Source: Chloroflexi bacterium RBG_16_56_11
Lineage (GTDB): Bacteria; Chloroflexota; Dehalococcoidia; Dehalococcoidales; RBG-16-60-22
Assembly: GCA_001796865.1 (NCBI GenBank)
Contig: MGNQ01000009.1
Span: 19,547 to 64,513 of the forward strand
Direction: 5' to 3'
DNA: 44,967 bases
The notes under the pieces were generated by a model, which was not told where the DNA came from, made no database searches, and was given only the letters and a program-made list of their open reading frames with translations. This document shows, piece after piece, positions 4-12,596 of this stretch. The translations under genes were made by a program, and so were the position numbers. Numbering within the stretch: the first letter of the stretch is position 1; each line of letters opens with the position of its first letter.

Positions 4-1125
4 TCACCCCAGTGCCTGCCGCAGATCATCCAGGATGTCCTCGGTATTTTCGAGGCCGACTGAGAGACGGACCAGCCCATCCGTGATGCAGCACTTCTCG
101 CGGTGCTCTTTAGGCATAGAGGCATGCGTCATTGTCGCCGGATGTGATGCCAGCGAAGTGGGTCCCCCTAGCGACTCTGCCAGGATAAAGAGTGTAATTT
201 TCCTGAGGAAGCTGTAAGCTGCTTCTTGTCCACCCTTCAATTCAAAGCTGACCATCCCGCCGAAGCCCTTCATCTGCCGGCGGGCGATTTCATGACCGGA
301 ATGCGAAGCTAGTCCCGGGTAATACACCTTTTTTACCGCCGGGTTTCTGCTGAGATATTCGGCCACGGCAAAAGCGTTATGTTCATGGTGGTTCATCCTG
401 AGATGCAGTGTTTCGATGCCCCTCAGTACCAGCCAGCAATCGAAAGGAGAAGCGCAGGTGCCCATGGCGTTGAGCAGATATTGTACCCTCTCGGTCAATT
501 CTTTGGTGGTAGTTATCACAGCACCACCGACGACGTCGCAATGGCCGTTGAGGTACTTGGTGGTGGAGTGGACGACGAGGTCTACTCCGAGGTCTATCGG
601 CCGCTGGAAGTAGGGCGTGGCGAAGGTATTATCGATAACGGTCAACAATTTATGTTTCTTGGCCACGTCTACCGTCATCTCGATATCGGTTATATTGAGA
701 AGCGGATTGGAAGGGGTTTCCAGCCAGAGCATCCGGGTGTTCGGCCTTATAGCCTCCTCAATTTTACGCCGGTTATCCAGCCTCAGGAAGGTAGTCTCTA
801 TGCCGAAATGCCGCATCACGTTCTCCAGCAGGCGGTAGGTTCCCCCGTAAACGTCATCGCCGCAGATAACATGGTCACCAGTCTTGAGCAGGTGCAGCAC
901 GGTGGTCTCGGCGGCCATGCCGGTGGCGAAGGCAAAGCCGGCCTTGCCTCCTTCGAGCTGTGCCATGGTATCCTCCAGGATTTTCCGTGTCGGATTGGAT
1001 GTACGTGAGTAATCATACCCTTTTGTCTTACCGATGTCATCGAAGGCAAAAGTCGATGTCATGTAAACAGGGGGGCTGATGGCCCCGTAAGCACGGTCCA
1101 TACGCTCGCCGGCATGGATATTCAT
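4..1125 (-). CDS. Cys/Met metabolism PLP-dependent enzyme (cystathionine gamma-synthase / gamma-lyase family)
   Basis: Protein shows the Cys/Met PLP family signature (ISPPVYMTSTFAF, YDYSRTSNPT, VVHSTTKYLNGHCDVVGG). ATG at 1125 (MNIHAGERM) is preceded by GAGGAG, so the longer ORF start at 1140 is less likely. Confidence 0.92.
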   Translation of the reverse strand: MNIHAGERMDRAYGAISPPVYMTSTFAFDDIGKTKGYDYSRTSNPTRKILEDTMAQLEGGKAGFAFATGMAAETTVLHLLKTGDHVICGDDVYGGTYRLLENVMRHFGIETTFLRLDNRRKIEEAIRPNTRMLWLETPSNPLLNITDIEMTVDVAKKHKLLTVIDNTFATPYFQRPIDLGVDLVVHSTTKYLNGHCDVVGGAVITTTKELTERVQYLLNAMGTCASPFDCWLVLRGIETLHLRMNHHEHNAFAVAEYLSRNPAVKKVYYPGLASHSGHEIARRQMKGFGGMVSFELKGGQEAAYSFLRKITLFILAESLGGPTSLASHPATMTHASMPKEHREKCCITDGLVRLSVGLENTEDILDDLRQALG

Positions 1126-1323
1126 TGTCTCACTCCTCATATTCTTCCTCCTTACTTTCTACGGATAAAGGATTGTTTCGGGTCGTGATCGATATGCCGA
1201 CCAGGTAATTTGATAACGGCGGTCAAGGGGGGACTGTAACAGGATATTCTGTGTCAGATTGAGATTTTAAACATCCCGGATAGCATCCGTTAGACACGAA
1301 CCCAGATGCATTGCAGAAATAAA

Positions 1324-1353
1324 GTTGACTAATTTGATAAACTAAGTATACTA
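1324..1353 (+). promoter_or_regulatory. Predicted sigma70-type promoter reading toward the sulfur/siroheme operon
   Basis: TTGACT (1325-1330), 16-nt spacer, TATACT (1347-1352); the same module is present inverted at 1443-1472. Confidence 0.6.
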
Positions 1354-1442
1354 TTCTCTAAAAAACCTGTCAAGCAATACCGATAAAAACGTTTAAACTC
1401 AGCCGGGGGCTTGACAGGATGGGAAAAGTATTGTAAATTGGT

Positions 1443-1472
1443 TAGTATACTAAACTTATCATATTAGTCAAC
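1443..1472 (-). promoter_or_regulatory. Predicted sigma70-type promoter reading toward the metB-like gene
   Basis: Minus strand: TTGACT (1471-1466), 16-nt spacer, TATACT (1449-1444); near-identical to the plus-strand module at 1324-1353. Confidence 0.6.
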
Positions 1473-1904
1473 AATTAGGTTATGAACACATTTTTGACTG
1501 CCCGTAAAACTGTCAACCCTGTAAATGAACACGGTAGGCAACTACCACTGTATGTTCCATTTACACTGCAGAACATTTTTCACCCCGGGCGCCATTTCTC
1601 TTTCTCCGGGATACAGACCTTTTCTGGAGGAACTCATCACACCTGCGCCTGTACCAGCGCCGGTTGTGGCGCTGCGGCAGAACACTGAACCTTTTCCCGG
1701 AACCTCGCGAGTCAATCACCCCGCAAATAACACACAACCGGCATTTCAGGTTAATCTTACCAGACCGACTTTGCATCAGGCGTATAACCGTAGATATTAT
1801 TTTTCACCCTGTGCAATTTACGTCAGGTTTCATGAAATCTTTTTGCTTTCATAGAATTTAATAATTTTTAAAGGATCACTGGGATAAGGAGGGGAAGAGA
1901 ATAT

Positions 1905-2852
1905 ATGCCAGAGGATGAAAAGAGCCAACCCGGGATGAATTTTGAAGAGCTCAAGAGCGGCGGATTCATCAAGCAGACGCAGGAGAACCTGTTCACCGTA
2001 AGACTCAGGTGCCCCGGAGGCAAGCTGACCTCTCGGCAGTTGAATAAAGCGGCGGAGCTTGCCGAAAAGTATGGCCGCGGGGAGATTCATAACTCCTTTC
2101 GCCAATCTATTGAAATCCCTTACGTTCATTACCGGTATTTTAATGATATTATCGCTGAGCTTAAGCAAATAAACTGGGCGGTAGCTTCCTGCGGTCCGCG
2201 CATTAGGGTCCCCACTGCTTGCGCCGGATGTACCTGGAACCCTAACGGGCTGATGGACACCCAGACCATGTGCCGGGAGATAGATAAGCGGTATTTCGGG
2301 ACTCCCACCACTCATCATAAATTCAAGATATCATTCTCGGGCTGCCCGATAGACTGCGCCCGCTCCCGGGAGATGGACCTGGGTTTCCAGGGTATGGCGG
2401 AGCCGGAGCTGGTATCCGAAATGTGCACCGCCTGCGGGCTTTGCATCTCCAGCTGTGAGGAAAAGGCGCTGACTATGGTCAACGGGCTGCCGGTGAGGGA
2501 TTACAGCAAGTGCATCTATTGCGGGGACTGCGTCAAGGTGTGTCCGGTAAACGCTATGATCGAGATGAGAAAGGGATGGCTGGCACGCGTCGGGGGGAAA
2601 CATGGCCGGCACCCCCTGTATGCTTATGAGATAGCGCAGTTCGTCTCGGATGAACAGTGTTACCCCCTTCTTGAAAAGACGATGGATTGGTATAAAAGCA
2701 ATGCTACCGGAAGAGAAAGAATCGGGGCAACCGTGAGTCGTATCGGCCTGGCCAAATTTCTGGATGAAGTAGTAAAACCCCTGGGTTTGGAGGTTATCGA
2801 GACGCCAGAAGAAAGAAAAAAGTACCGGACGGGAGGCAACCTGTATATGTAG
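1905..2852 (+). CDS. Small siroheme-[4Fe-4S] sulfite reductase with ferredoxin domain (anaerobic/Dsr-LP/Fsr-C-like)
   Basis: SGCPIDC and upstream Cys cluster typical of siroheme sulfite/nitrite reductases; two 4Fe-4S motifs (CTACGLCISSC, CIYCGDCVKVCP); AGGAGG RBS upstream; next to cysH. Confidence 0.85.
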   Translation: MPEDEKSQPGMNFEELKSGGFIKQTQENLFTVRLRCPGGKLTSRQLNKAAELAEKYGRGEIHNSFRQSIEIPYVHYRYFNDIIAELKQINWAVASCGPRIRVPTACAGCTWNPNGLMDTQTMCREIDKRYFGTPTTHHKFKISFSGCPIDCARSREMDLGFQGMAEPELVSEMCTACGLCISSCEEKALTMVNGLPVRDYSKCIYCGDCVKVCPVNAMIEMRKGWLARVGGKHGRHPLYAYEIAQFVSDEQCYPLLEKTMDWYKSNATGRERIGATVSRIGLAKFLDEVVKPLGLEVIETPEERKKYRTGGNLYM

Positions 2853-2905
2853 TATTCCCATATCTATCGAGCACGAACAAGAATTAATTGGAGGAAAGCG
2901 CAACA

Positions 2906-3646
2906 ATGGAAGAAAAAGTTCAACATGCGAAAGAACTAATAAGAGAATCGATAGTTAAATATCGCCGGATTGCGGTAGCCTGCTCTTTCGGCAAGGACAG
3001 CATGGTAACGGTGCATATTGCCAGGGAAGTTGACCCGGACATCAAGGTGTTTTCGGTGATGACCCAGTACAAGCCGAAGGAGACGTTTGAATATCTCCAA
3101 TTGATGAACAGGCGGATGAACCTGAATACCACGGTATATATTGTGGCGGACAGCGTTCCTGAGATACTCCGCGATAATAACATCGAAGTGATATTGCTAC
3201 CTTCGGCGGAGTTTAATCAGGCTGCGACCAGAGTCAACTCCGAAAAAGCTAGGGCCATTTACGAGACTGACCCTGATGAATGCTGCCGCCTGCTCAAGGT
3301 TGACCCCACCAAAGTAGCGGTAAAAGACCTCGATGCCTGGATAACGGGCTTAAGGAACACCGAGGGCAGAACCAGGGTAGATTACCAGGAGGTCGAGCAT
3401 AAGGGCGGCCTTGTTAAAATCAATCCGATTTTAACTTTTACGGAGACCGATATCTGGAAATACATGGCCACCCGGGGCATCGAACCCCATCCCTGGTACC
3501 GCATGGATTACCGCTCCATCGGCTGCGCCCCTTGCTCGAATCCCGGCGGCGTACTGGAGCGGGACGGCCGGTGGAAGGACACCAGCAAGTGTGGCGGCGA
3601 GTGCGGCATACATACACAAACACTCAAATTAGCCGTGAAGCGATAG
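2906..3646 (+). CDS. cysH: Phosphoadenylyl-/adenylyl-sulfate reductase (CysH family)
   Basis: CSFGKDSMV PP-loop, C-terminal KCGGECGIH, internal SIGCAPCSNP; ATG at 2906 preceded by GGAGGAAAG. Confidence 0.88.
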   Translation: MEEKVQHAKELIRESIVKYRRIAVACSFGKDSMVTVHIAREVDPDIKVFSVMTQYKPKETFEYLQLMNRRMNLNTTVYIVADSVPEILRDNNIEVILLPSAEFNQAATRVNSEKARAIYETDPDECCRLLKVDPTKVAVKDLDAWITGLRNTEGRTRVDYQEVEHKGGLVKINPILTFTETDIWKYMATRGIEPHPWYRMDYRSIGCAPCSNPGGVLERDGRWKDTSKCGGECGIHTQTLKLAVKR

Positions 3647-3655
3647 AGGATAAAC

Positions 3656-4843
3656 ATGGAAAGTCAGGGATTCAATCACCATCTAAGGGTATATTCGGAT
3701 ATAACCCAGTTGATTGGCAGCCTGGATAACCCCACGCCTTTGGTCAGGCTGAACAGGATCAACGGAAATAAGGATTTCTCTATTTACCTTAAGCTGGAGA
3801 GGTATAATCCCTTCGGCTCGGTCAAGGACAGGATCGCCCTTGCCATGATCAAGCGGCTGGATATCGGCCATAAAACACTCGTCGAGCCCTCTTCAGGGAA
3901 TACGGGGATTGCCCTTACTTGTGTTGCCAACTCCCTGGGGATACCGATAGAAATAGCGGTGCCGGAAGGTATCCCCGAGGAAAAGAAAGTCCTGCTAAGG
4001 TTTTTAGGAGCCAAGCTTATGGAAGCCAGTGATTCGTTGTGTCCCGTGTTCCCGAGTGAAGGAGCGAGGGGGCTGGTTAATGCCCTGGTAAATAGCCCGG
4101 CCACCCGCGATAGCTACATCAGCCCTAACCAGTACGAGAACGAGCTAAATGTCCAGGCCCATTATGAGACGACGGGGCCGGAAATCTGGAAGCAGACCGG
4201 GGGAAAAATCGACTATTTCTTTGCCGGATTCGGCACCTGCGGCACGATAACGGGTGTCGGACGCTACCTCAAAGAACAAAACCCAGCGGTAAAAATAGTG
4301 GCCGTGGAGCCTTCTTCAAAAAACCACCGGCTGCCGGGGATGAAGAGGATAACCGGGCTGGCAGAAGAATATGTACCCAAAATCCTTGACAGGTCAATAA
4401 TCGATGACATAGTCGAGGTGGATGATGAGCAAGCCTATAAAACGGCGCTGGAGTTGGCCCGGAAAGACGGCATCCCCGTCGGGCCGACCACCGGGGCGAT
4501 TGTTACCGCCGCCCTGCGATACGCCGGGTTAAACAAAGGTCTGGCGGTGGCCATTTCACCCGATGATGCCTTTAAATACGCCAGCTTTTACGCCGGGGTG
4601 CTGAAGGGAGAGGAAGAAAATGGCCGTCGCCGTGAATATGATCTGAGCGACCTTGTCTGCCCGCTATCCAAGATGCGAGCAACGGAACTGATTGACGGGC
4701 TGCGACAGGGAGAAACGGCAGCTATTATCCTCGGTGATGTCGATTCGCTGAAAAACGTGTCCAAAGAGTTGAAGACCAGGGGCGTCAAGCTGAGCTTTGA
4801 GCAGGAAGGTGAAAGCCGGTTCAAATTGACCGTCACAAGATAG
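3656..4843 (+). CDS. Cysteine synthase-family PLP enzyme fused to a C-terminal TusA-like sulfurtransferase domain
   Basis: N-terminal CysK motifs (NPFGSVKDR, EPSSGNTGIAL, GTCGTITGVGRYL). C-terminal ~70 aa (DLSDLVCPLSKMRATELIDGLRQGETAAIILGDVDSLKNVSKELKTRGVKLSF...) matches the TusA/SirA pattern. Confidence 0.85.
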   Translation: MESQGFNHHLRVYSDITQLIGSLDNPTPLVRLNRINGNKDFSIYLKLERYNPFGSVKDRIALAMIKRLDIGHKTLVEPSSGNTGIALTCVANSLGIPIEIAVPEGIPEEKKVLLRFLGAKLMEASDSLCPVFPSEGARGLVNALVNSPATRDSYISPNQYENELNVQAHYETTGPEIWKQTGGKIDYFFAGFGTCGTITGVGRYLKEQNPAVKIVAVEPSSKNHRLPGMKRITGLAEEYVPKILDRSIIDDIVEVDDEQAYKTALELARKDGIPVGPTTGAIVTAALRYAGLNKGLAVAISPDDAFKYASFYAGVLKGEEENGRRREYDLSDLVCPLSKMRATELIDGLRQGETAAIILGDVDSLKNVSKELKTRGVKLSFEQEGESRFKLTVTR

Positions 4844-4890
4844 ATGGAATGCCTCTCCTGAATTATGTGACACCCGGTGGAGTAATACAA

Positions 4891-5160
4891 ATGAAAAATA
4901 AAAACATTGAATGTGCCTATATCGGAGAAATGAAAAGACGTTCGTGGTTGAAATCTATTACCTGGCGGATTATCGGGATTGTTATTCTGGGTTTGATTTC
5001 CTGGCTGATCACTCATGACTGGGAACAGACATCCGTAATAACGATTTCCTTCCATGCTGTTCGTCTTGTCCTCTACTATTTTCATGAGAGATGGTGGGAC
5101 AACCGCGAGTGGGGCCGGATAAAAGTCACGGGACAACTGGAGAAAGGAGAAGGCATCTAG
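4891..5160 (+). CDS. DUF2061 small membrane protein
   Basis: MKRRSWLKSITWRIIGIVILGLISWLIT...HERWWDNREWG resembles DUF2061; located within the sulfur-assimilation operon. Confidence 0.75.
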   Translation: MKNKNIECAYIGEMKRRSWLKSITWRIIGIVILGLISWLITHDWEQTSVITISFHAVRLVLYYFHERWWDNREWGRIKVTGQLEKGEGI

Positions 5161-5214
5161 CCTCGGAATGTGCCGGCGGGTCAGGAAGGGTCGCCGACTC
5201 ATGAAAGCAAAAGA

Positions 5215-5865
5215 ATGAGCTACTACCCGGTGTTTTTAAATATCAAAGGGAAAAAATGCGTCGTCTTCGGTGGTGGAGAGGTCGCTCTGCACAAGGTGAC
5301 ATCTCTTCTGGATAACGGAGCGCGTGTAAAAATAGTAAGTCCGGTAATTTGCAGCGATTTATCGCGCCTGGCAGAAACCGGGGCAGTCCAGGAGGTTAAA
5401 CGGGAATACCGAGACGGAGACCTGCGAGGCGTTTTTCTGGCCATCGCGGCGACCGATAACTGGAAAACTAATCTCGAGATTACAGTTGAAGCCCGCCGGA
5501 GAGGCTGCCTGGTCAATACCGTTGATGACGCCGACCATTCCGATTTTATCTTGCCTTCTTGCCTGCGCCGGGGAGATATTACCATTGCCGTTTCCACGTC
5601 GGGCAAGAGCCCGGCGCTGGCCCGTAAGCTCCGCCATAAACTCGAAAAAGAAATTGGTAATGAATATGCCTCTCTGATTGGTCTGGTTGCCGCAGTGCGG
5701 GAGGAAATGAAAAAGCAAGGGATAAAGATAAACAGAAATACCTGGCAGGAAGCCCTCGACATCGAGTGGCTGCTAACGCTTTTAAAAAGCGGCGATACGC
5801 TAGGGGCAAAAGCAGCAATTATGGGAAAACTATTGGCGATACAGGATTACTCAAATGTATCTTAA
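5215..5865 (+). CDS. Precorrin-2 dehydrogenase / siroheme synthase N-terminal type (CysG-N/Met8-like)
   Basis: YYPVFLNIKGKKCVVFGGGEVALHKVTSLLDNGA, NTVDDADHSDFILPS, RGDITIAVSTSGKSPALARKLR. Confidence 0.9.
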   Translation: MSYYPVFLNIKGKKCVVFGGGEVALHKVTSLLDNGARVKIVSPVICSDLSRLAETGAVQEVKREYRDGDLRGVFLAIAATDNWKTNLEITVEARRRGCLVNTVDDADHSDFILPSCLRRGDITIAVSTSGKSPALARKLRHKLEKEIGNEYASLIGLVAAVREEMKKQGIKINRNTWQEALDIEWLLTLLKSGDTLGAKAAIMGKLLAIQDYSNVS

Positions 5866-7120
5866 TCTGGTAGGTATCAATCACCACATAACTCCCGTCA
5901 ATATCCGGGAACGGGCCGCGGTGAGAAGAAGCAGGGTTCAGGACGCCCTCGAAGCGCTAAAAAAAACGGCAGCTCACTGTGTCATCCTGTCCACGTGCAA
6001 CCGTACCGAGATTTACACAGTGGAAAACCATAATCAAGAAAAAGAAAGGGCCGGACTCTTTTTCTTGAAAAAATATTTACACGTTCCTGAATCTATCCTG
6101 TCAGAATATGCTTATTTCTGCAGCGGCGCCGCCGCCGCAGAGCACCTTTTCGGCGTGGCCGGTGGTCTTGATTCCATGATAGTAGGAGAATGCGAAGTCC
6201 TCGGGCAGGTCAAACGGGCATTGGCTTCCGCGGAAGAAGCCGGAACGGCCAACCTCCCACTGCGTCGCTTGTTTCAGGCTTCGATCAGGACAGGGCGTCG
6301 AATCCGCAAAGAAACCGAAATCAGCCGGAACCACCTTTCCGTCAGCTCTATAGCCGTAGAACTGGCCGTGCAATCCCTGGGCGACCTTGCGCGATGCCGG
6401 ATATTAATTATCGGGGCCGGCGAAGCTGGTAAAGGGGCGGTTCTCGCCGCCAGGGAAAAAAACGCGGGTGACATTCTTGTCGCCAGCCGAACCCTGGAAA
6501 GGGCTTCGGCCTTGGCCCGGGTTTTACGAGGTACCGCCATTAAATTCGACGATATACCGGCAATACTGGGTTCCTGTGACCTTGTTGTTGCCTGTGCCGA
6601 CGCCGGCGGAACCATCATCAACTCACATCAGGTCGCCCAGGCGTTGCAGAAGCGTAATGGTTCACCACAGGTAATAATCGATATCGCTGTACCCCGGAAC
6701 GTGGACCCTGACGCTGGTCTGATAGATAACGTATCCCTTTATAACATCGATGACTTGAATCTAATTTCGGAAAAGAACCACCAGCTGCGCAAGCGTGAGT
6801 TAATAAAGGCCAGACGGATTATCAGGGAGGAGAGAGAAAGGTTCCTGTCCTGGTGGCGGAGTTTTTCGGTTAGCCCGGTTATCTTTGCCCTCATGGAAAA
6901 GGCCAACCGTATCCGGGATGCTTATTTCGATAAAACGTTAAAAAAGCTGCCGACGCTCTCCGATGAAGAAAGGCATAGCCTGGAAAAGATGACCGAAGTC
7001 ATCGTGACTAGATTGCTTCAGGACACCGTCGACATGCTAAAAGAGAATTCCAACCGTGACGGGCAATATTCTCGCCTGGTCAGCCAGCTTTTCCGCCTGG
7101 ATTGCGAGGTGTCGCAATAA
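5855..7120 (+). CDS. hemA: Glutamyl-tRNA reductase
   Basis: VGINHHITPVNIRERAAV, STCNRTEIY, GLDSMIVGECEVLGQVK, IIGAGEAGKGAV. Confidence 0.95.
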   Translation: MYLNLVGINHHITPVNIRERAAVRRSRVQDALEALKKTAAHCVILSTCNRTEIYTVENHNQEKERAGLFFLKKYLHVPESILSEYAYFCSGAAAAEHLFGVAGGLDSMIVGECEVLGQVKRALASAEEAGTANLPLRRLFQASIRTGRRIRKETEISRNHLSVSSIAVELAVQSLGDLARCRILIIGAGEAGKGAVLAAREKNAGDILVASRTLERASALARVLRGTAIKFDDIPAILGSCDLVVACADAGGTIINSHQVAQALQKRNGSPQVIIDIAVPRNVDPDAGLIDNVSLYNIDDLNLISEKNHQLRKRELIKARRIIREERERFLSWWRSFSVSPVIFALMEKANRIRDAYFDKTLKKLPTLSDEERHSLEKMTEVIVTRLLQDTVDMLKENSNRDGQYSRLVSQLFRLDCEVSQ

Positions 7121-8043
7121 TCCCGAGGAAAATCGTGGTAGGTTCCAGGACCAGCCGGCTGGCTTTAATCCAGACGGAATTGGTTGTCGCGGAGATGAAA
7201 AGGGTGTCTCCGGGCACTGTATTTACCGTAGAGAAAATCGTTACCCACGGCGACCGTGACCGGCAGATCCCGCTCGACCGTGAAGAAGCGGCCGGTATCT
7301 TTATCAAGGAGCTTGAAGAAGCCTTGCTGGAGAAAAAGATTGATATCGCCATACACAGTCTTAAAGATGTACCGGAGAGAATTACGGCCGGACTGTGCCT
7401 TGCGGCGACGACGGAGAGGCTTGAACCCGGGGATGTGCTGGTAACCCGGGGGCTATCGCTGGCGCAACTACCTCCGGGCTCGCGCATCGGCACCGATAGT
7501 CTACGGCGTTCTATACAGCTACTCCGTCAGCGAAAAGACCTGGAGGTACATAGCCTCCGCGGCAACGTCGATACCCGCGTGGGCAAAGTGGTCCAAGGTG
7601 AGTTGGACGGCATCATCCTGGCTGCCGCTGGACTCATACGTCTCGGCCTTCAAGACAGGATTTCACAGTACCTGCCAATCGACGATTTTCTACCGGCCCC
7701 CGGCCAGGGCGCGCTCGCAATAGAAATAAGGCAGGACGATTGCCAGGTGTATCAGTTGGTTTCCCAGGTTAACCACCTGCCCACCTGGCAGAGCGTCACT
7801 GCTGAACGTGCCTTACTCACCGCTTTGGGGGTTGACTGCGATGTTCCCATCGCAGCCCTGGGCCGGGTAACAGATGGCTGGTTGACACTCACCGGCATGG
7901 TAGCGAGCCGGGACGGCAATGTCCTGCTACAACGTAAGGCGGAAGGGGATGCCCGGGAAGCGGGAAGGGTCGGCGAGCGGCTGGCGCGGATGATGTTGGA
8001 ATCAGGCGCGTCGGAATTAATTGCCGGGTTGAGACGCAAATGA
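7102..8043 (+). CDS. hemC: Porphobilinogen deaminase (hydroxymethylbilane synthase)
   Basis: VGSRTSRLALIQTE, DIAIHSLKDVPE, LRGNVDTRVGK, LPAPGQGALAIE. TTG start likely; overlaps the hemA end. Confidence 0.93.
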   Translation: MRGVAIIPRKIVVGSRTSRLALIQTELVVAEMKRVSPGTVFTVEKIVTHGDRDRQIPLDREEAAGIFIKELEEALLEKKIDIAIHSLKDVPERITAGLCLAATTERLEPGDVLVTRGLSLAQLPPGSRIGTDSLRRSIQLLRQRKDLEVHSLRGNVDTRVGKVVQGELDGIILAAAGLIRLGLQDRISQYLPIDDFLPAPGQGALAIEIRQDDCQVYQLVSQVNHLPTWQSVTAERALLTALGVDCDVPIAALGRVTDGWLTLTGMVASRDGNVLLQRKAEGDAREAGRVGERLARMMLESGASELIAGLRRK

Positions 8044-9554
8044 ACGGTACAGTCTATCTGATTGGGGCTGGTCCGGGAGATCCGGGTCTAATGACGTGCA
8101 AGGGATTGGATTGCCTGGTCAGGGCAGACGTGATTATTTACGACCACCTCGTTAATAAGCAGTTACTGGATATAGCCCCGGAAAGCGCCGCCAGAATTTA
8201 CGCGGGAAAGAGTGCCGGCTGTCATGCCATGTCTCAAGATGAAATCAACCGCTTGCTGGTATCTAGTTCCAGGGAAGGCAAGGCCGTGGTACGGCTTAAA
8301 GGCGGCGATCCATTTGTCCTGGGTAGAGGAGGTGAAGAAGCCGAAACCCTGGCCAAATGCGGCGTCCCTTTCGAAATCGTACCCGGGGTTACCTCGGCGG
8401 TAGCGGCACCGGCTTACGCCGGGATTCCGGTCACCCATCGTGAACTAGCATCATCTTTTGCCGTTATTGCCGGTCATGAAGACCTGGCGAAGAGTGATTC
8501 TAGAATACAGTGGGCTAAACTGGCTACCGGTGTGGACACTCTGGTATTTCTGATGGGTATGCAGAACCTCCCCGAAATCGTGGCCAGGCTTGTCGAGCAC
8601 GGCAGGGCTATTGATACCCCTGTGGCGGTTGTCCAAGACGGCACAGGACCTCTGCAGAAGACGGTAGTGGGCACTTTAAGGGACATCGTGGATCTTGTTA
8701 AAGAGAATGGCATGGTGCCTCCGGCTGTTGTCGTGGTCGGTGAAGTGGTCAGGCTAAGGGAAACAATTCGCTGGTTCGATAACCGCCCGCTATTCGGTAA
8801 ACGTATACTGGTTACGAGGGCAAGCCACCAGGCAAGCACAATGAGCAAAGCGCTGGCCGAAAGGGGCGCTCTGCCCGTCGAACTACCTGCTATTACTATC
8901 CAGCGTTTATCTGACGATAAGGAGCTCAAAGCGGCTATCCTGAATCTAGGACAGTACCAGTGGATAGTCTTCACCAGTGTGAATGGCGTTGAGGCCTTCT
9001 TCGATGCTCTGGTCAATCAAAAGCTGGACTCTCGTGCCCTGAGCCAGTTGATAATCGGGGCCATCGGGCCTTCAACAGCAGAAGCATTGCGTCAAAAAGG
9101 CATCGTCGCTGATTTCCAGCCGGATATATTTACGAGTGAAGGGCTTATCGCCGGTTTAAAACAGTGGAATATCGCCGGTCAGCGATTCCTGCTCCCACGA
9201 GCTGACATTGCCGGTGAAGAACTGGTTCAGGGACTGGTTGGATTTGGGGCCTTGGTGCAGGAAATCGCAGTCTACCGGACTTCACCCGATGTCGAGTCTA
9301 TTGCTCAGGCCAAAGAGATGCTTCTAACGAAGCAAATCGATGTCATCACTTTTACCAGCTCATCGACGGTAACAAACCTGATAACCGCTCTTGGCGATAA
9401 CGAAATACCAGAAGGGGTCAAGATTGCCTGTATCGGGCCGAAAACGGCGGAGACCGCAATAAAAGCCGGACTTAAACCTGACGTAGTAGCTAAGGAGCAT
9501 AATATCTCCGGCCTGATAGACTCGTTAGAGGAATTTTTCAGAAAGGCGGCATGA
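8040..9554 (+). CDS. Fused uroporphyrinogen-III C-methyltransferase / uroporphyrinogen-III synthase
   Basis: N-terminal SUMT motifs ([53 protein letters not shown]) followed by a HemD domain ([35 protein letters not shown]). Confidence 0.93.
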
Positions 9555-9555
9555 T

Positions 9556-10548
9556 ATGGTAGTCTTTCCCGCGCAGCGCTTGCGTCGCTTACGCCGGACA
9601 GAAACAATACGGAGACTGGTACAGGAAACAAAGGTGGAAGTGAGGGACCTGGTCTATCCTCTCTTCGTGAAAGAGGGTATGGGTATCACGGAGGAGATAC
9701 CTTCCATGCCGGGCATCTTCCGGTTCTCTCCCGACCGGTTGCCAGCGGAGGTTGAAGAGATAGCCGGACTGAACATTCCCGCCGTTATTCTCTTTGGTAT
9801 TCCGGAACACAAGGATGAAACTGCCTCCATGGCGTGTCATCCAGAAGGGATTATCCAGCAGGCAATACGGACTATAAAGAAGTCAGTCCCTGAGCTTCTG
9901 GTGGTGTCCGATGTTTGCCTTTGTGAATACACAAGTCACGGTCACTGTGGCGTGATATCGAACGGCGATGTTGACAACGACAAAACATTATCATTCCTGG
10001 CGAAGACGGCTCTCTCGCATGCCGAAGCGGGAGCTGACATAGTCGCTCCTTCTGATATGATGGACGGCAGAGTCAAAATAATACGGGAAACCCTGGACCG
10101 GGCCAGTTATCAGAATATACCTATCCTCGCTTATTCGGCCAAATACGCCTCGGCATTTTATGGTCCTTTCCGGGATGCGGCGGAGTCATCTCCGCGGTTC
10201 GGCGACCGCCGCTCCTACCAGATGGATCCGCCCAACGTGCGGGAAGCGTTGCGGGAGGTTGAAGAGGACATCAACGAAGGCGCTGATATGGTGATGGTTA
10301 AGCCGGCATTGCCTTACCTGGATGTCATCAGCCGGGTACGGGCCGCTTTCAATCATCCATTAGCCGCCTATAATGTCAGCGGCGAGTATGCAATGGTAAA
10401 AGCAGCCGCCCGGCAAGGCTGGCTGGATGAACAACGCGCTATCACAGAGATTCTCACGGCTATCAAGAGAGCCGGTGCAGATATCATAATCACCTACCAC
10501 GCCAAGGACTTTGCCCGCTGGTCGGAACTGATGCAGGGAACCATATGA
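9556..10548 (+). CDS. hemB: Delta-aminolevulinic acid dehydratase (porphobilinogen synthase)
   Basis: [15 protein letters not shown], Zn-type [43 protein letters not shown]. Confidence 0.95.
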
Positions 10549-11828
10549 ATCAACAACGTTCCGAAGAACTCTTCCGCGAGGCACAACGTTTCCTGCCCGG
10601 CGGTGTTGACAGCCCGGTAAGATCTTATAAGGCGGTGGGGGGCACGCCACCGTTCATAGTGAAAGGACGAGGGTCAAGGATATTTGATGTAGATGGGAAT
10701 GAATTCATTGACTACGTCTCGTCGTGGGGGCCTCTGATTCTGGGTCATTCTCACCCGCAGGTAGTTGAAGCGTTGAAAAAAGCCGTGGAACGAGGAACGA
10801 GCTTTGGCGCTCCGACCGAATTGGAGATAACACTGGCCAAAATTATTTCAGCGGCTATTCCCTCCATCCAGATGCTACGCTTTGTGAACTCAGGGACAGA
10901 AGCAACTATGTCGGCTCTACGTCTGGCACGGGCCTATACGAAACGAGACAATATTATCAAATTCGCTGGCGGTTATCACGGCCATGCCGATGGGCTTCTC
11001 GTCAAAGCCGGCTCGGGTGCGGTCACGCTGGGTATACCCGATTCCCCTGGTGTTCCCTCCGGTTATGCCCGGAATATGCTGACAGCGCCATATAATGATG
11101 CTACGGCCGTAGAGCAACTTTTTGAACTCAATCCTGAAAAAATTGCGGCTGTCATAGTTGAGCCGGTGGCGGCTAACATGGGAGTGGTGCCGCCTCGACC
11201 CGGTTTCCTGGAAAGTCTGCGTAACCTGACCAGCCGGTTCGGCTCACTTCTCATATTTGATGAAGTTGTTACCGGCTTTCGCGTTGCTTATGGAGGTGCC
11301 CAGGTTAAATTTGAGGTCGCTCCCGACTTGACATGCCTGGGGAAGATTATCGGCGGCGGATTGCCGGTGGGCGCATATGGCGGTAGAAAAGATATTATGG
11401 AAATGGTGGCTCCGGTGGGGCCAGTATATCAAGCCGGGACGCTGTCGGGAAATCCCATAACGATGACGGCGGGGATAGAGACGCTTAAATTGCTCCATCA
11501 GCCCGGTTTTTATGAACAACTTGAAAATAAAGCGGCGAGCCTCGAAAAGGGAATAGCTATTGCAGCGGCCAGAGCTGGCGTCAATGTTTATATTTCGCGT
11601 GTCGCCTCGCTTCTTACAGTCTTCTTAACCGGTGACCGCGTAATCGACTATGAATCAGCGAAGCGAGCCAGTACCGCGGCGTTTAGCAGGTTCTTTCATA
11701 GTTTGTTAGCCGAGGGCATTTACTGGCCACCATCTCAGTTCGAGGCGGCCTTTGTCTCGTTTGTCCATAGTGAAGAAGACGTCCAGCTTACCATCGGAGC
11801 GATTGAAAAGGCACTTAACTCGTTATAG
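10545..11828 (+). CDS. hemL: Glutamate-1-semialdehyde 2,1-aminomutase
   Basis: [80 protein letters not shown]. Confidence 0.95.
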
Positions 11829-11853: not shown

Positions 11854-12255
11854 GTGCTCGATATTAGGGTAAATTCGATGAGATGTTGGAAGCGGTTGAA
11901 ATCACTCGTTGCGAGGCAGCATGAGCCTTGTCCAGGATGTCGCATGTGTGTGCAATTAACGGGCAGGCCCCCCGAGAACCAAGCAGAGTACTTTGTCAAG
12001 AAAATAATGGGAGAACGTGAGTCGGTTCCCCTTCACTGGCTAGAGGGGCAGATTAGTAACACTCTCTATCATGAGGAGCTTAAGCTCGGTGCCGGGACGC
12101 TTGACATAGGCGTATGGGGGCCAGGTCTATTCGTTAAAGAGGCGGACCGCATCCTAGCGGAAATACGCCCGGAGTTTGCTTATTTCGTACGAGAGAATGG
12201 AACCAAGTTGGAGGCTACAGAGGCTTTCGAAGGGGGCCAGAAATCTGGTTATTGA
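11854..12255 (+). CDS. Hypothetical protein
   Basis: 133-aa ORF in the same direction as hemL, overlapping the next ORF by 4 nt; CPGCRMC motif; no family recognised. Confidence 0.5.
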   Translation: MLDIRVNSMRCWKRLKSLVARQHEPCPGCRMCVQLTGRPPENQAEYFVKKIMGERESVPLHWLEGQISNTLYHEELKLGAGTLDIGVWGPGLFVKEADRILAEIRPEFAYFVRENGTKLEATEAFEGGQKSGY

Positions 12256-12596
12256 ATTATTGCCGACAGGCTATCTCTAAAACATACTACGACCTGTTCA
12301 CATTTATTATTCAATTCGCTAATGAGTTATCTGAGTGGGACTCACATGATGAAGACGATCTCTTTTCTTATCCTATTTACATTCCAACAGCGTTGGATGT
12401 GTGCCTGACACACATGCGCCAAGAAATCAGTTCTCCCAATGACGAAAGACTTCCCGAGTATCGACGCACACTAGCTGACGCTCAAAACAGTCTTCGAGCA
12501 TCCCGTTACCAACGGCTACTAGATGATCGTATCGCCAAAGAGGTAGCGGAAGAATGGCTGCAAAGTAACACCACAAAAGTGCGGCTATCGTTTTGA
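12252..12596 (+). CDS. Hypothetical protein
   Basis: 114-aa ORF with an ATGA-type overlap with the upstream ORF; no family recognised. Confidence 0.5.
   Translation: MNYCRQAISKTYYDLFTFIIQFANELSEWDSHDEDDLFSYPIYIPTALDVCLTHMRQEISSPNDERLPEYRRTLADAQNSLRASRYQRLLDDRIAKEVAEEWLQSNTTKVRLSF

Follow-up and report, generated by a model that had tools for sequence, protein, structure and literature searches.

How is transcription controlled in the intergenic region that separates a metB-like gene from a set of sulfite-reduction genes in Chloroflexi bacterium RBG_16_56_11, and what are the long inverted arms that lie there? We analyzed a 44,967-nucleotide stretch of this genome (here called the window), for which the original prediction had read the arms as two near-identical promoters facing each other, forming a shared operator and a transcriptional-interference switch that an Rrf2/CymR-like sulfur regulator might bind. 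On one side, the metB-like gene (4 to 1140, minus strand) encodes a Cys/Met metabolism PLP enzyme (PF01053; E = 1.8 × 10−157) that belongs to the cystathionine gamma-synthase/lyase group; no NCBIfam equivalog was above its cutoff among the matches listed. On the other side, three genes follow one another on the plus strand: an asr-like sulfite reductase gene (1905 to 2852) with NIR_SIR and NIR_SIR_ferr matches (siroheme/4Fe-4S plus ferredoxin domains; the best NCBIfam model, sulfite_red_C, was below cutoff), a cysH-like PAPS/APS reductase gene (2888 to 3646; PF01507, with NF002537 above cutoff), and a gene for a cysteine-synthase-like PALP protein (3656 to 4843; PF00291) that carries a TusA sulfur-carrier domain (PF01206) fused at its C terminus. 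The same-strand series continues from the sulfite-reduction genes into siroheme and heme synthesis genes (1905 to 11828), with open reading frames that resemble a siroheme NAD-binding protein (domain checked) and hemA, hemC, cobA-hemD, hemB, and hemL (by reading). Beyond these, two adjacent open reading frames of 133 and 114 amino acids (11854 to 12596) had no Pfam match.

The inverted duplication itself was confirmed. Two 30-mers lying 89 nt apart were complementary at 26 of 30 positions (87%); when the 764-bp intergenic region was randomized 200 times under a first-order Markov model, no 30-nt inverted pair scored above 22 of 30. Each arm contains TTGACT and TATACT separated by 16 nt, in the direction originally given, and the inner 10-mer CCTGTCAAGC (1366 to 1375), its inverse (1409 to 1418), and the central 8-mer GTTTAAAC (1391 to 1398) were all in place. 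The arm pair was single in the 2.27-Mb assembly with up to 3 mismatches allowed. A genome-wide scan with the spaced pattern as first written, which has six N positions and thus one too many, returned 0 matches, and the same pattern with five N positions returned only the two arms.

When the 156 genomes of the same order were searched with the arm sequence, allowing three mismatches, four matches were obtained outside the genome of origin. In two of these (L036 in G107 and L037 in G150), the next gene downstream encodes an Rrf2-family regulator, with cysK after it in G107; cysK is a frequent neighbor of the regulator genes that carry the element. De novo motif discovery in 46 regulator upstream regions, a set that left out L036 and L037, yielded gTatACTATGTTGATtAtaTTAGTCAACAA. 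This family motif is composed of three half-sites, GTWTACTA, GTTGAYTA, and an inverted TTAGTCAAC, and has dyad symmetry above chance: its matrix aligned with the reverse-complemented matrix at two offsets (r = 0.73 and 0.64), and 0 of 500 permutations reached r = 0.73. We then scored the window with a stricter matrix, re-fitted on 44 regulator loci with the own-genome loci excluded, for which a softened version of the initial matrix served as the starting point. The left arm (30.2 bits; minus strand, 1351; E of about 2 × 10−7) and the right arm (29.4 bits; plus strand, 1445; E of about 5 × 10−7) ranked first and second in the window, each on its predicted strand, compared with 7.5 bits for the next, unrelated site and a maximum of 14.3 bits for 200 column-permuted matrices. 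The left arm thus constitutes putative operator 1 (1322 to 1353, minus strand, toward metB; TAGTATACTTAGTTTATCAAATTAGTCAAC), and the right arm constitutes putative operator 2 (1443 to 1474, plus strand, toward asr; TAGTATACTAAACTTATCATATTAGTCAAC).

Conservation of the arms in relatives has two sides: the motif recurs at rrf2 and cysH promoters, but the mirrored pair has no orthologue among the genomes searched and was seen only in RBG_16_56_11, so that the metB/asr intergenic region itself is without a footprint. Outside the genome of origin, the 29 best loci retrieved within the order comprised 22 at rrf2, 2 at cysH, 1 at HcyBio, and 4 in other places. The two cysH sites (L163 and L164; 29.4 and 29.6 bits) lie directly upstream of orthologues of the window gene in G022 (76% identity) and G108 (71% identity). 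Across 30 metB loci, a clear site was found only at the locus studied here and at one with an adjoining rrf2 gene. The arm sequence was absent directly upstream of asr at the two orthologous asr loci of the family, where the neighboring gene is rrf2 or cysK; in one genome (G013), rrf2, cysK, asr, and metB share a contig, and in another (G022), rrf2 adjoins asr. A phylum-wide profile search reached 8 further genomes and included one locus of the same class with an rrf2-cysK neighbor; none of the query genes was near the remaining loci from that search. In GTDB contigs, a near-exact operator pattern occurred on a single contig, from Dehalococcoidia bacterium E44_bin29.

The related loci also bear on the direction of transcription. 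Of 48 related regulator promoters, 47 have a TTGACA-like −35 box and a −10 box on the upstream side of the element, oriented into the operon. In the window, the −35 boxes with this conserved polarity are the inner 10-mers, since a TTGACA sits inside CCTGTCAAGC and inside its inverse, and transcription should therefore diverge from the center. Both TTGACA-containing pairs, the better promoter-like pairs of this stretch, had been missed in the original prediction, and their directions are opposite to those it gave. On the minus strand, the predicted metB promoter (1345 to 1373) has −35 TTGACA at 1373 to 1368, a 17-nt spacer, and −10 TATACT at 1350 to 1345; it matches consensus at 11 of 12 positions and was the top score of the region in a promoter scan. 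Its transcript would be expected to start near 1338, and operator 1 overlaps both the −10 box and this start region. On the plus strand, the predicted asr-cysH-cysK promoter (1411 to 1439) has −35 TTGACA at 1411 to 1416, a 17-nt spacer, and an imperfect −10, TAAATT, at 1434 to 1439 (10 of 12 consensus matches). Here a start would be expected near 1446, and operator 2, which was also found by pattern, spans about −3 to +27. The distance from −35 box to operator is 22 bp on the metB side and 34 bp on the asr side, within the 18 to 35 bp seen at related loci. The predicted asr leader is long (1446 to 1904; about 459 nt). Relative to shuffled sequences it folded slightly better (z = −1.79), and the value for the metB leader was z = −0.28, giving no clear structured RNA; Rfam had no match between 1000 and 2000 of the window. 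A second promoter, or a leader element of an undescribed type, may lie within the asr leader.

Pattern and profile searches of the genome of origin extended the set of candidate sites beyond the arms to two rrf2-cysK promoters (contigs C15 and C55), cysE (C27; 26.0 bits), and a metY-like gene (C54; 21.7 bits). The metB-side arm was the top profile match of the whole genome (E = 2.7 × 10−4), and the right arm was only partly matched in that search (E = 0.45). Taken with the matrix scores, these sites suggest that the arms behave as operators common to two sulfur transcription units, and to this extent the shared operator originally proposed holds up. The proposal of an Rrf2/CymR-like sulfur regulator likewise appears right in kind: the element stands at rrf2 promoters in a sulfur-gene context, and the proposal gains support from the occurrence of the motif ahead of the rrf2-cysK, cysE, and metY-like genes of the same genome and ahead of cysH in relatives. 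The two rrf2-cysK loci (L073 on C15 and L072 on C55) are similar neighborhoods of rrf2, cysK, HcyBio, and cysteine desulfurase genes, each with its own operator.

Orthologues of the regulator were found in 103 of the 156 genomes of the order, and two are encoded in the genome studied here. Both of the latter belong to the Rrf2 superfamily (133 to 136 bits against a TIGR00738 cutoff of 73.3), and both fall below the equivalog cutoffs for CymR (121 to 133 versus 195 bits) and IscR (102 to 127 versus 207.55 bits). The promoters of both genes carry the motif, as do those of rrf2 genes in other genomes of the order. Among 49 regulator proteins, cysteines at 92, 99, and 105 were conserved in 49, 48, and 49, respectively; E43 was present in 43, and position 107 was threonine in 41, with H107 absent. 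By sequence, the nearest solved chain was the Rrf2/BadM-family entry PDB 4cic (E = 1.9 × 10−37 and 3.1 × 10−33), followed by CymR. In the alignment with 4cic, which is IscR of Thermincola potens, the chain offers no cysteine partner for the second and third query cysteines; the deposited chain may be altered.

The motif was observed directly, along with the strand it occupies, where it sits at promoters, and the sulfur genes around it; regulator binding, repression, start sites, and the signal are inferred. We conclude, with a probability of roughly 85% and on sequence comparison, that the metB/asr region is a divergent promoter pair under two mirror-image operators that serve an Rrf2 regulator of a Dehalococcoidia type, similar to CymR and IscR. 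RNA polymerase would start leftward to metB from the TTGACA at 1373 (minus strand) and rightward to asr-cysH-cysK from the TTGACA at 1411 (plus strand). One regulator dimer would sit on each 30-bp arm, occluding the −10/start region and thereby blocking the promoter on that side; because the operator is positioned over this region, repression rather than activation is expected. With an adequate supply of sulfur, cysteine, or Fe-S, the metB and asr units would both be silenced, and a shortage would release both; candidate effectors are Fe-S status, either cysteine or O-acetylserine, and a complex with CysK. Either or both of the rrf2 products encoded on C15 and C55 most probably act as the regulator; their genes lie beside cysK and HcyBio with operators of their own, and since these rrf2 genes are on other contigs, metB and asr would be controlled in trans. 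Weighing against the model are the imperfect −10 of the asr-side promoter, the partial profile match of the right arm, the lack of an orthologous mirrored pair, and the length of the predicted asr leader.

The alternative that survives best, although we consider it unlikely, is that the arms are bidirectional. The −10 sequence AGTATACT is palindromic and reads as TATACT on both strands, so that this symmetric −10 could engage polymerase either way, with outward starts serving the genes and inward antisense starts arising when the operators are free. Bidirectional promoters arising from symmetric sequences have been described in E. coli (PMC12825309), and such activity fits alongside the operator model. 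However, the outward −10 of the right arm is TAAATT, not the palindrome, and the window differs from the bacterial precedent in having two separate divergent promoters with one predicted operator each.

It is considerably less probable that the arms are operators of another regulator that also acts at rrf2 promoters. That the motif lies close to rrf2 argues indirectly for autoregulation, which leaves room for such a protein; against it, the motif goes with rrf2 throughout the order, and its inner dyad is similar to the type 1 site of another Rrf2 protein, IscR (PMC3899308).

The convergent promoters originally proposed, whose overlapping transcripts would interfere, are less probable again and in our view can very nearly be set aside. 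Both TTGACT-16-TATACT hexamer pairs are present, each with 10 of 12 consensus matches, and about one in four related sites shows a promoter resemblance in the opposite direction (2 mismatches or fewer). The related promoters, however, have the opposite polarity, and inward transcription would drive neither flanking gene directly. The TTGACT taken as a −35 box is, judged by comparison of related sites, the conserved distal half-site of the putative operator, TTAGTCAAC in the other direction; it is kept at related sites where a TTGACA promoter reads the other way. The facing-promoter interpretation thus probably has the direction inverted, and the interference switch is left unsupported, the TTGACA promoters being predicted to read outward. 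The region also illustrates how an operator half-site can mimic a −35 box and flip the interpretation of a promoter. Finally, the 149-bp stretch with its 30-bp inverted ends could recall the terminal inverted repeats of a small mobile element, a reading with next to no probability that we rejected on its single genomic copy, and also disfavored by the lack of an exact match to the arm pattern in viral contigs, the absence of an evident target duplication (by eye), and the match of the arms to single operators at rrf2 promoters elsewhere.

Under the preferred reading of two mirror-image Rrf2 operators, the regulators can be set beside two known systems. CymR, which represses cysteine metabolism in Bacillus subtilis and Staphylococcus aureus, belongs to the same Rrf2 superfamily, its structures are among the closest solved ones, and its regulon of cysteine and methionine synthesis genes resembles the one predicted here (metB, asr-cysH-cysK, rrf2-cysK, cysE, and the metY-like gene). 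CymR binds DNA through a complex with CysK; in the genome studied here, cysK adjoins rrf2 at both loci. The regulators described here differ from CymR in falling under its equivalog cutoff and in having three conserved cysteines. CymR of B. subtilis does not bind an Fe-S cluster (PMC9338935), so these cysteines may indicate one here; together with the scores below both equivalog cutoffs, they suggest an Fe-S-dependent repressor of a cysteine regulon. The likeness to IscR, the Fe-S cluster regulator of E. coli and Pseudomonas aeruginosa, lies in three cysteines near 92 to 105 and, mostly, E43. In contrast, the cysteine positions are 92-99-105 here and 92-98-104 among the Fe-S ligands of IscR, the position of its remaining ligand, H107, is mostly T here, the targets are cysteine and methionine genes, and the operator has an additional half-site. 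The family motif has an inner dyad, GTTGAYTA-N3-TAGTCAAC, that is similar to the type 1 site of IscR, ATASYYGACTRWWWYAGTCRRSTAT (PMC3899308); the window arms retain mainly the outer dyad.

A wider proposal is tentative, and we rate it as doubtful. Dehalococcoidia may use a distinct three-cysteine Rrf2 protein, neither CymR nor IscR, that senses Fe-S or cysteine and couples cysteine, methionine, and sulfite-reduction genes through a three-half-site operator of two overlapping dyads. The mirrored pair might then act cooperatively, with dimers 119 bp apart center to center that loop the DNA or jointly shut both promoters. Dehalococcoidia are hard to grow and include the organohalide-respiring Dehalococcoides. 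A published Rrf2/CymR-type sulfur regulon for this class was not found in the literature searched, and the present analysis offers a predicted one, with regulator, operator, and targets, for one of its orders. Should the conserved cysteines indeed hold a cluster, IscR-type sensing and a CymR-type regulon would be joined in one protein.

Several further sites were seen in relatives. In G143, an operator-like site of 30.7 bits (L161:1501-1530) has an ArsR-family gene on one side and a gene for a SufC-like ATPase on the other, which hints at a tie to Fe-S assembly. Two others, in two relatives, are away from known sulfur genes (L147:1501-1530, 29.2 bits; L149:1498-1527, 28.2 bits). Tandem copies of TATACTA extend over the rrf2 promoter in G140 (L082:1658-1716) and G136 (L085:1375-1433), perhaps a double-operator variant.
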